28,028 nucleotides of DNA from IMG/VR virus record IMGVR_UViG_3300030118_002715, positions 3,325 through 31,352 of that record; one strand, written 5' to 3'. Both the position numbers and the translations under genes were made by a program. The stretch's first letter is position 1. Each line of letters opens with the position of its first letter. This DNA is from a virus. Below, piece after piece: positions 8,270 to 10,762 of this stretch. The notes under the pieces were generated by a model. It saw only the letters and a list, made by a program, of their open reading frames with translations. It did no database searches and was not told the origin of the DNA.

Positions 8270-8398
8270 TTAAATCGTGAATGCTTTGTAAATCAAAGCA
8301 ATGTCAATCACAATAATATTCCAAAAAATCAATGCAAATACTGAGTTTCTTAATTTTTTGTATCTTAAATCTAGGTCTGAATCTGTGTTTATTTTCAT
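8270..8398 (-). CDS. Single-pass membrane peptide, unknown function
   Basis: 42 residues: a charged start (MKINTDSDLDLRYKKLRNS) followed by a hydrophobic helix (about residues 20-38, FALIFWNIIVIDIALIY) and a short tail. The ATG at 8396-8398 overlaps the TGA of the HNH gene (ATGA) and has AAGG 7 nt upstream, which fixes this start over a longer open frame that runs inside the HNH gene. Likely inserted in the host inner membrane. Phages carry such peptides as superinfection-exclusion or lysis-accessory factors, but nothing here identifies one. Confidence 0.55.
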   Translation of the reverse strand: MKINTDSDLDLRYKKLRNSVFALIFWNIIVIDIALIYKAFTI

Positions 8399-8865
8399 TG
8401 TTCTACCTTTTTGTATATCCATCTTCTGCATATTGCACTCATATGGTTTGGTTTTACTTCGTATTCTTTTGATAAGTCTGAAACAATACCCCAATAATAT
8501 TCGTTATCGTATCTGTTTCTGATATCTTTTATTTCTTCATCTGTAAATCTACCACGTTCTGCCGCATTACCTCTTTGTAATGACCCTGCATCTACAATAA
8601 TAATATGTTCTGGATTACAACACGCTGGTTCATTACAAGTTCTTGATACTCTAGTCCCGGTGTATTTGGTTGGTTTGGTTCCGTATTTTAGTTCTGCTAT
8701 TACTGAATGAACTGTTCTCATTTTAGTTTTGTAACGCATCATACCGTAACCCAACTGAGAATGTTTACCACCTGTCCATATTAGACAATCATTGAATGGT
8801 CTACCTTTAGCAACTATTTGTTCTAATGTCCATTCTTTTGGTTTTCTACCTGGCTTCTGTCTCAT
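8395..8865 (-). CDS. HNH endonuclease (HNH_3-like) with C-terminal HTH
   Basis: 156 residues from the ATG at 8863-8865, preferred because GGGAG lies 7 nt upstream; an in-frame ATG 11 codons earlier has no such site. The core follows the phage HNH_3 layout: CLIWTGG, GYGMMRY, TVHSVIAELKYG, then TCNEPACCNPEHI, and a Gly-Arg after an Asn-Ala segment. The final 45 residues (EEIKDIRNRYDN to SAICRRWIYK) look like the helix-turn-helix DNA-binding tail found on such enzymes. Where relatives usually have His before the first Cys (HxC), this protein has Arg (SRTC), so activity is uncertain. It is free-standing, not inside an intron or split gene, suggesting a selfish homing endonuclease or a DNA-processing role. 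Confidence 0.8.
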   Translation of the reverse strand: MRQKPGRKPKEWTLEQIVAKGRPFNDCLIWTGGKHSQLGYGMMRYKTKMRTVHSVIAELKYGTKPTKYTGTRVSRTCNEPACCNPEHIIIVDAGSLQRGNAAERGRFTDEEIKDIRNRYDNEYYWGIVSDLSKEYEVKPNHMSAICRRWIYKKVEQ

Positions 8866-8866
8866 A

Positions 8867-9343
8867 TTACGTCTCCCAAGTAAATAAACCATCTTCAACT
8901 ACAACATTGTATTCTGGTTGCTTTGTTTCTTGTTTTGGTTGTTCTTTTCTTACGTGTTTAATGATAGAGTCGCCATCAAGAATTTCCATTTGACCTCTTT
9001 TAGTTGAAATAAATTTAGTTTCAAACTTTGGAAGTTTGTCTGGTCTACCTGCATCAATAAATTGCTTATGTATTCTTGGATTATACATTTTAGAAGCAAA
9101 TGTGTAAACGTGACCTACGCCATTGTTTACTACATCTTCCCATCCATTTGTTTTGAAATTTGCGTAACCTACTGTTTTCTTTTTCATACCTTGTAGAGTC
9201 ATTTCATCTATTTGTCTTCTTGGTCCGGTATAACAGGTAATTGTTTCTTTTAAGTCTAAGTTTTTGAATGTAAAACGATAATCGCCATCTTTCATTCCAT
9301 ATGTATCTATTTTAGTCAATAGATATTCGTGGTTATGTTTCAT
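8867..9343 (-). CDS. Unknown protein, first gene of a short cassette
   Basis: 158 residues, soluble, mildly basic, no recognised domain. The N-terminal half is beta-like (YLLTKIDTYGMKDGDYRFTF), the middle has NGWEDVVNNGVGHVYTFASK, and the C-terminal quarter is Lys/Glu/Gln-rich and probably disordered. The ATG has AAAAAAGGAG 6 nt upstream and lies 28 nt after a consensus sigma70 -10 element, so this is the leader gene of the unit. The HNH gene follows with a 1-base gap (TAA T ATG). Expression from a host-type promoter suggests early or constitutive synthesis. I cannot assign a function. Confidence 0.65.
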   Translation of the reverse strand: MKHNHEYLLTKIDTYGMKDGDYRFTFKNLDLKETITCYTGPRRQIDEMTLQGMKKKTVGYANFKTNGWEDVVNNGVGHVYTFASKMYNPRIHKQFIDAGRPDKLPKFETKFISTKRGQMEILDGDSIIKHVRKEQPKQETKQPEYNVVVEDGLFTWET

Positions 9344-9420: not shown

Positions 9421-9443
9421 TAAAAGGTCTTTTTCAAAGACCT
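9421..9443 (-). terminator. Intrinsic terminator T2
   Basis: On the minus strand AGGTCTTT, a GAA loop, AAAGACCT (9425-9443), an 8-bp perfect stem, followed by TTTTA. The plus-strand side lacks a T-run. It ends the long noncoding unit that begins near 10036. Confidence 0.7.
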
Positions 9444-10036
9444 AACAATTCGTTTCCTTACTCGTTACCACTCGTTTAGAAACTCATTGTTTGGACAAAC
9501 ACCTAATATCTATTTGGATAATAATAATATTATTCATCTTCACTATGGCGAAGCCACAGGTCGAGGGAGTTTTCCCCCGGTCACTGTGACTAACTTCTTC
9601 ACTAAGTCTTACCACATTCTGTATTACACAACTCTTTCGAGAAAAGCAGGTTTAGGTATCAATCTTTATTACGTGCGGTCTACCCATACACTAGAACCAT
9701 ACAGTCAGTCTATCTAGTGTATTGACAGTTAAATGAATAAATCATTCTCGACATTCTGTCTCACTGAACTATTATATTAGATGTTATATTAGAACTTTCT
9801 CATATCTCTATGATACAACCATTGCGACAATAGAAAAGCACTCGATCCGGAAGGGGACGTCTTTTAAGGCATCCTGCATAACAGGGTAGTCTATTGAAGT
9901 AGATAACAAGCAATCAGCATACCGCCACACATCAGAACGGACTCTGCAACACGATAACAATCGGCGTGTCAACCTTAATCTTGTTTGTAATTTATGGGAT
10001 AGATATTAGTTCTTAAAAATCGTTATATTAGATATA
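9421..10036 (-). ncRNA. Candidate large structured noncoding RNA (about 615 nt)
   Basis: Between promoter P2 (10043-10071) and terminator T2 there is no minus-strand reading frame with a ribosome site. The RNA has strong helices: a 10-bp perfect hairpin (arms 9686-9695 and 9713-9722, 17-nt loop); a compound hairpin at 9553-9590 whose inner arm pairs CGGGGGA with TCCCTCG through a G-U pair and whose outer arm GTCACAG pairs with CTGTGGC through a U-G pair, so it folds better as minus-strand RNA; a hairpin at 9800-9813 with a GAGA (GNRA) loop on the minus strand; and TGTTT-GTCC-AAACA near 9490. The decamer TTATATTAGA (plus strand) occurs three times. Size and phage setting recall GOLLD/ROOL-type giant RNAs, but identity is not established. 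Confidence 0.55.
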
Positions 10037-10042
10037 TTTATT

Positions 10043-10071
10043 ATAATAACAAATAATCAGACCGAAGTCAA
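10043..10071 (-). promoter_or_regulatory. Sigma70-type promoter P2
   Basis: Minus strand TTGACT (10066-10071), 17-nt spacer, TATTAT (10043-10048), with an extended -10 TG one base before. It shares TGTTATTATA with P1. Predicted start near 10036. No gene lies downstream before terminator T2. Confidence 0.75.
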
Positions 10072-10507: not shown

Positions 10508-10518
10508 TATTTATGCTT
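10508..10518 (-). promoter_or_regulatory. Candidate late promoter motif ahead of the noncoding region
   Basis: AAGCATAAATA on the minus strand, overlapping the stop codon of the 81-residue gene by two bases. This copy faces the hairpins and noncoding units, not a protein gene, so late transcription could enter the RNA region here. Confidence 0.4.
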
Positions 10519-10762
10519 ACATAAATGCTATTGCATCTAACTGTTTTGCCAGTTGTTTTAGTGATTTGTTGTAATCTTTTGGTAAATGCAGTTCCCATAC
10601 ATCTTCACGTTTTTGTAAAGTGCAATTTGCAGGAATCTTGTAAATGTCTGTTGATGATGTAATCAATAATACACCCGCTGTATGTTTTAGCGGTGATTTT
10701 CTAGTTTTAGCACGTCCTGTAATTCTCATCATTCTTGCAGGATCTAATACTGTGTAAGGCAT
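10517..10762 (-). CDS. Small unknown protein at the end of the late block
   Basis: 81 residues, basic N-terminal half (RMMRITGRAKTRKSPLK) and a C-terminal helical stretch with KSLKQLAKQLDAIAF. No recognised domain. The ATG lies two bases after the stop of the upstream gene, with only a weak purine-rich stretch before it, so translation probably depends on coupling. It is the last protein gene of the right-hand late transcript before the noncoding region, and its stop codon overlaps an AAGCATAAATA motif. A structural or head-accessory role is possible from position only. Confidence 0.6.
   Translation of the reverse strand: MPYTVLDPARMMRITGRAKTRKSPLKHTAGVLLITSSTDIYKIPANCTLQKREDVWELHLPKDYNKSLKQLAKQLDAIAFM

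Follow-up and report, generated by a model that had tools for sequence, protein, structure and literature searches.

To our knowledge, few giant RNAs of phages have been described (GOLLD and ROOL), and their role remains open. ROOL (RF03087) is a free-standing, ornate, phage-borne RNA of about 600 nucleotides (nt) that lies near tRNA islands (PMC12286853). GOLLD (RF02032) is large and ornate and is found in phages and prophages, including some from water; it is often longer than 800 nt, and its conserved part is the 3' region (PMC12286853). Both assemble into homo-oligomers, so that oligomerisation has a precedent among phage RNAs of similar size; multimers are not universal among large RNAs, and raiA is a monomer (PMC12286853). 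Polynucleobacter-1 (RF01718) is a 141-nt Rfam model whose listing gives Burkholderiales and fresh water as its sources, and the 2010 paper carries the motif in a table only (PMC2864571).

Computation shows that the minus strand of one interval in the window (the whole stretch of 28,028 nt analysed here, taken from a marine virus record of 31.4 kb) encodes a free-standing, elaborately folded RNA. It is about 615 nt long and belongs to a large family, which diverse aquatic phages and islands of freshwater bacteria carry. This RNA shares with GOLLD and ROOL the form of a large, phage-encoded unit that stands alone, with its own promoter and terminator and phage genes around it. A first, sequence-only reading of the DNA had pointed to the size and phage carriage of the known giant RNAs, rightly, as the RNA is of ROOL size and sits in a phage. 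The same reading saw in the locus the setting of GOLLD and ROOL and raised membership of those families; neither proposal survived. Unlike at ROOL loci, tRNA genes are rare nearby (in the flanks of just 2 of 60 loci), and unlike in GOLLD, conservation is highest in the 5' domain. Rfam 15 models, including those of GOLLD, ROOL, OLE, IMES and RF01718, gave no match that makes sense on the window or on its homologue L031, even to E 10. HEARO resembles the family in the nuclease genes found near several RNA copies, but here the nuclease varies in kind and is not constant, and there is no model match.

The locus and its transcription signals

The virus record encodes terminase, portal, tape-measure and tail proteins, almost all of them from the minus strand. 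Its host is uncertain, perhaps alphaproteobacterial, because the large terminase shares no more than about 50% identity with any isolate (Pelagibacter phages HTVC111P and HTVC202P, and phage DSL-LC06, come closest). A 1.17-kb stretch with no credible gene separates genes 10517-10762 and 8867-9343. Along the minus strand, this stretch holds a terminator (10129-10098), the promoter of the RNA, the RNA itself (from about 10036), its terminal hairpin and a separate promoter, in that order (Table 1).

Within the RNA interval the only open reading frames are 9487-9717 (plus strand, 76 aa) and 9808-9972 (minus strand, 54 aa), both with a TTG start. Conservation of a reading frame, which would have spoken for a protein, is absent: none of the homologues at L031, L085, L086, L089, L092, L106, L132 and L101, which include the closest window-type ones, contains an inside frame of at least 50 aa. 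The original description of a gene-free unit of 615 nt with a promoter and a terminator of its own is accurate. Promoters of similar strength stand upstream of the RNA in L085, L086, L087, L089, L101, L106, L107 and L132; many subtypes other than that of the window have no evident promoter there. The terminal hairpin is swapped for hairpins of other sequence (e.g., GATGCC-GGCATC) in L085, L086 and L092.

Covariation and structure

Single-sequence folding gave -147.1 kcal/mol for the minus strand (z -1.58) and -126.2 for the plus strand (z -1.19), mildly better than chance and only suggestive as a model result. The verdict that the interval is an RNA comes from covariation among homologues, not from this fold. 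Pairs were counted on the structure read from alignment A1, which contains 40 dereplicated 5' domains. The 5'-domain helices are paired in 89.3% of cells, versus 67.6% after shuffling, with 321 double changes versus 109. Covariation is 0.575 versus 0.197; slid partners reach at most 0.162, and none of 500 shuffles reaches the score. RNAalifold predicted 29 pairs in the 5' domain, 26 of them with double changes. Helices P1 to P6 contain 119 G-U cells versus 7 A-C cells, which marks the minus strand as the RNA. That the interval gives a folded RNA of this family is close to certain.

Covariation in homologues was the check that the sequence-only reading had named, and its other structural claims held too. 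The minus strand, which it favoured, agrees with the G-U count, and the helices that it singled out (9553-9590 and 9800-9813, the latter with a GAGA loop) are real, both keeping compensatory changes in homologues. The homologues of the GAGA hairpin have the stems CATA/TATG, CGTA/TACG and CGCA/TGCG, closed by GAGA, GAAA, GCGA, GTAA or GTGA loops.

Other elements were scored individually. All four Watson-Crick pair types occur at one pair of P4. The native strands of the pseudoknot P0 score 13.5, versus 10.5 (sd 0.29) for swapped strands. Every cell of P7 is paired (100%, n=20 sequences), with covariation of 0.543 versus 0.140 after shuffling. Native complementarity is 20.0 for P8, versus 10.8 (sd 0.83) with swapped partners, and 22.7 for P10, versus 14.8 (sd 0.90). 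Helices of P9 and of the 3' terminal region were judged by eye. A further pseudoknot beside P1 is suggested, also by eye on A1, because L106 and L132 show an exchange near P1 (GC/GC there, GG/CC in the window).

The motifs of P5 and P2 served to fetch most homologues, so the conservation of these two stretches is partly selection. P1, P3, P4, P7, P8 and P10 were not used in selecting homologues. Copies found only with R1, our own covariance model (its E-values rest on a short calibration), are free of this motif-selection bias; these are the second copies in large virus records and the copies in bacterial genomes.

Table 1. Features of the large-RNA locus, in window coordinates
Feature	Position	Strand	Basis or detail
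Large RNA, ~615 nt	9421..10036	-	predicted start to terminator; profile-search homologues in 144 loci and covariation
Sigma70-type promoter TTGACT-17-TATTAT	10043..10071	-	-35 at 10071-10066, -10 at 10048-10043
3' terminal hairpin / intrinsic terminator	9425..9443	-	stem AGGTCTTTGAAAAAGACCT, then TTTATG; T run modest
Separate promoter for next gene	9400-9372	-	between large RNA and gene 8867-9343
5' domain, P0-P6	9815..9990	-	alignment A1, pair counts; window scores 149.7 bits with model R1
P0	9985-9980 with 9910-9905	-	pseudoknot of 5' end with P3 loop
P1	9971-9966/9952-9947	-	paired in 99.6% of cells (A1)
P2	9940-9936/9926-9922	-	A1
P3	9915-9913/9904-9902	-	A1
P4	9896-9890/9834-9828	-	paired in 240/240 cells (A1)
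P5	9885-9882/9876-9873	-	A1
P6	from 9865	-	A1
GNRA hairpin CATA-GAGA-TATG	9801..9812	-	stem and loop variants in homologues
P7 stem GACAG/CTGTC, after invariant AGTGAG	9724..9760	-	covariation
P8 hairpin ATACACTAG/CTAGTGTAT	9686..9722	-	native complementarity
P9 region: conserved motif ACCTRCC (AGCAAAACCTRCC in relatives) and CTCGAAAGAG hairpin	9629..9671	-	alignments, by eye, not counted
P10 hairpin	9551..9593	-	hairpin of other sequence at same place in 15 homologues

Spread among phages and bacterial islands, and relation to Polynucleobacter-1

The first homologue, L031, came through relatives of the terminase, and patterns from conserved pieces fetched further ones. Searching iteratively with nhmmer from six window-type sequences led to convergence on 144 homologous loci among those fetched. 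The phage contigs that carry the RNA are between a few kb (small siphophages) and 372 kb long, and some come from giant phages. Virus contigs of 372, 185 and 278 kb (G003, G007 and G010; loci L252, L260, L253 and L257) hold two diverged copies each, the second copies being found with R1 alone. Below E 0.5, R1 had no match in 34 other loci or records, nor in genome loci that had been fetched by chance matches.

Several candidates were set aside. A blastn search with the RNAs of the window, L031, L090, L127, L096 and L141 found no credible homologue among 50,697 isolate phages; the matches at E 6e-5 cover an AT-rich promoter stretch and do not reflect homology. The protein of the downstream gene 8867-9343 brought up no relatives as bait, an exact pattern search for P10 had no match, and the seven matches of ATTAAGGTTNACACGCCG in GTDB genomes were all due to chance. 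L082, L084 and L116 are coding false positives, and L103 and L117 are doubtful as homologues. The L158 group has only the P2 motif (22.5 bits) in common with the family: L158, L159, L216, L219, L226 and L228 contain the exact P2 hairpin CCGTTCTGATGTGTGACGG and nothing else of the R1 model. Perhaps these contigs represent another class of RNA, with the P2 module borrowed. On one phage contig that carries the large RNA, ARAGORN reports a putative permuted tmRNA (L229, 2157-2578).

The RNA is patchy within the window's own phage group, where it is present in L031 and L092 (the contig of L027). In L009, whose large terminase is 93% identical, the upstream terminator and a similar promoter are kept and open reading frames replace the RNA. 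The related loci L021, L028, L036, L039 and L048 have no R1 match. The RNA is thus optional cargo, and close relatives that lack it fill the promoter slot with protein genes.

The nearest known relative is Polynucleobacter-1, whose model spans roughly a quarter of the full RNA and matches just the first quarter in a distant branch. Comparison with the Rfam consensus structure, using pair counts and alignment A3, shows the same order of the 5' domain: P1, P2 and P3, then P4 around P5 (CACTAYCC-hairpin-GGAYG) and P6. At its gathering threshold (37 bits), RF01718 has no match in 17 window-type and jumbo loci, and the typical RF01718 members L261 and L262 have no R1 match at E 1. Phage loci such as L141, L140, L157, L210, L149 and L230 match RF01718. 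R1 finds six RF01718-positive phage loci, none of which went into building it, at E 2.6e-7 to 5e-12, with about 22 bits of their R1 score due to the P2 motif used in fetching. L263, fetched by RF01718 alone, scores 25.8 bits with that model and 83.7 bits with R1 at the same place. By these sequence comparisons the window RNA is filed as a sister branch to Polynucleobacter-1 and not as a member, because RF01718 does not detect the window RNA, nor R1 the loci L261 and L262. One superfamily would include both branches, since the intermediate loci match both models and the helix order and island setting agree. The suggestion of a new class is nearly right, except that a short piece of a distant branch is present in Rfam. 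The literature yielded no previous description of the large form, but one may exist in a preprint or a subscription paper.

Among bacteria, R1 matches 7 of 299 Burkholderiaceae genomes, and 32 of 186 genomes in the genus of one of those seven. The RNA-bearing genomes of this genus are mostly 1.7-2.6 Mb in size; the genus is probably Polynucleobacter, a name inferred partly from that of RF01718 and its listing. The full-length RNA is divergent from a gene for a DUF6641 protein (Pfam PF20346; phrog_31551) in all seven genomes inspected (L273-L279), and the RF01718 loci L261 and L262 are likewise flanked by a divergent DUF6641 gene. The bacterial copies sit in islands, as judged from the tyrosine recombinase genes within a few kb of the RNA in most of the seven genomes and the restriction-type (restriction-modification) genes at some. 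The arrangement makes the DUF6641 protein, which has no relative with known structure, a candidate partner of the RNA. As a general partner it was rejected: a search run without a positive control did not find it in 23 phage records, mostly RNA carriers, so that it looks island-specific.

Proposed function and its rivals

Most likely the family is a structural RNA that phages and islands carry as an accessory and that acts in trans, a function that we infer. Action in trans is suggested because the genes downstream of the RNA vary among phages. Host RNA polymerase would transcribe the RNA from its own sigma70 promoter and stop at its own terminator. Pseudoknots and GNRA tertiary contacts would fold the transcript into a compact particle, which would serve in trans as structure or decoy, possibly as a homo-oligomer by analogy with GOLLD and ROOL. 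Such a particle would bind and divert a host component, benefiting the mobile element in infection or in competition between elements. We hold this reading tentatively, with somewhat less than even confidence; taken jointly, the folded family RNA and a mechanism of this broad form are evenly balanced between right and wrong. Rejected as families, GOLLD, ROOL and OLE remain the best model for its possible mode of action. More doubtful is a wider proposal, in which tiny siphophages, jumbo phages and islands would have in common a class of RNA-only machines: self-assembling particles, with DUF6641 in islands, for host takeover or inter-element warfare.

The family is a further widespread class of giant RNA, unrelated in sequence to GOLLD and ROOL, and through it an obscure Rfam entry of 141 nt becomes an RNA of about 600 nt. 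Deletion, pull-down and cryo-EM become feasible, because the bacterial copies lie in a genus with cultured strains (if it is Polynucleobacter) and have one conserved neighbour, DUF6641. A broader question then arises: are RNA particles a general tool of mobile elements?

The main rivals of the particle reading are a monomeric regulator and a nuclease-linked RNA. A monomeric trans-acting regulator, 6S-like or sequestering a protein, would re-program host transcription or translation; it would suit the strong host-type promoter and the standalone unit, and the spread over unrelated phages suggests a conserved host target. Such a regulator is nonetheless unlikely: the RNA has no likeness to 6S or to any Rfam regulator, and a length of about 600 nt with many tertiary elements far exceeds what regulators of this kind need. 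Considerably less probable is an RNA that serves a homing or nuclease system as guide, scaffold or regulator, like HEARO with IsrB, and that nearby HNH or GIY-YIG genes use or mobilise. An HNH-type gene (8395-8898, minus strand) does lie downstream in the window, with relatives near other copies, including L092; SegE GIY-YIG genes adjoin the RNA in L150 and L188, and NUMOD3/HNH in L180. The nuclease, however, is not the same at every locus and some loci have none, the HNH gene occurs in L009 although the RNA does not, and free-standing homing nucleases are common in phages.

The remaining alternatives fare worse. A cis-regulatory leader could be imagined from the next gene, 8867-9343, which follows downstream on the same strand, but the RNA's terminator and a separate promoter intervene and the genes downstream are unrelated among homologues, which makes this very improbable. 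Marginally less credible still is an element acting as DNA (an origin, packaging or recombination site) with its hairpins formed in single strands. Many hairpins in a gene-free stretch would fit such an element; the excess of G-U over A-C cells, the constrained GNRA loops, the promoter and terminator in register, the two copies in three genomes and the absence from sister phages do not. A divergent GOLLD or ROOL is almost certainly wrong, for all the agreement in size, phage setting and pseudoknots (PMC12286853), as the GOLLD, ROOL and OLE models fail on further loci as well and the RNA is not beside tRNA genes.

Upstream of the large RNA, the window contains another unit without genes, about 265 nt long (10397-10098, minus strand), which runs from a promoter TTGACA-17-TATTAT (10397-10369) to the terminator at 10129-10098. 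Positions 3340-3590 of L009 are homologous to this unit; the hairpin is wholly changed, with AGAAGATTTA/TAAATCTTCT versus GAAACCCAGA/TCTGGGTTTC, and the loop TTTGAAAGTG is the same. Judging from these changes, the unit is probably a second small structured RNA, which occurs also where the large RNA is absent.
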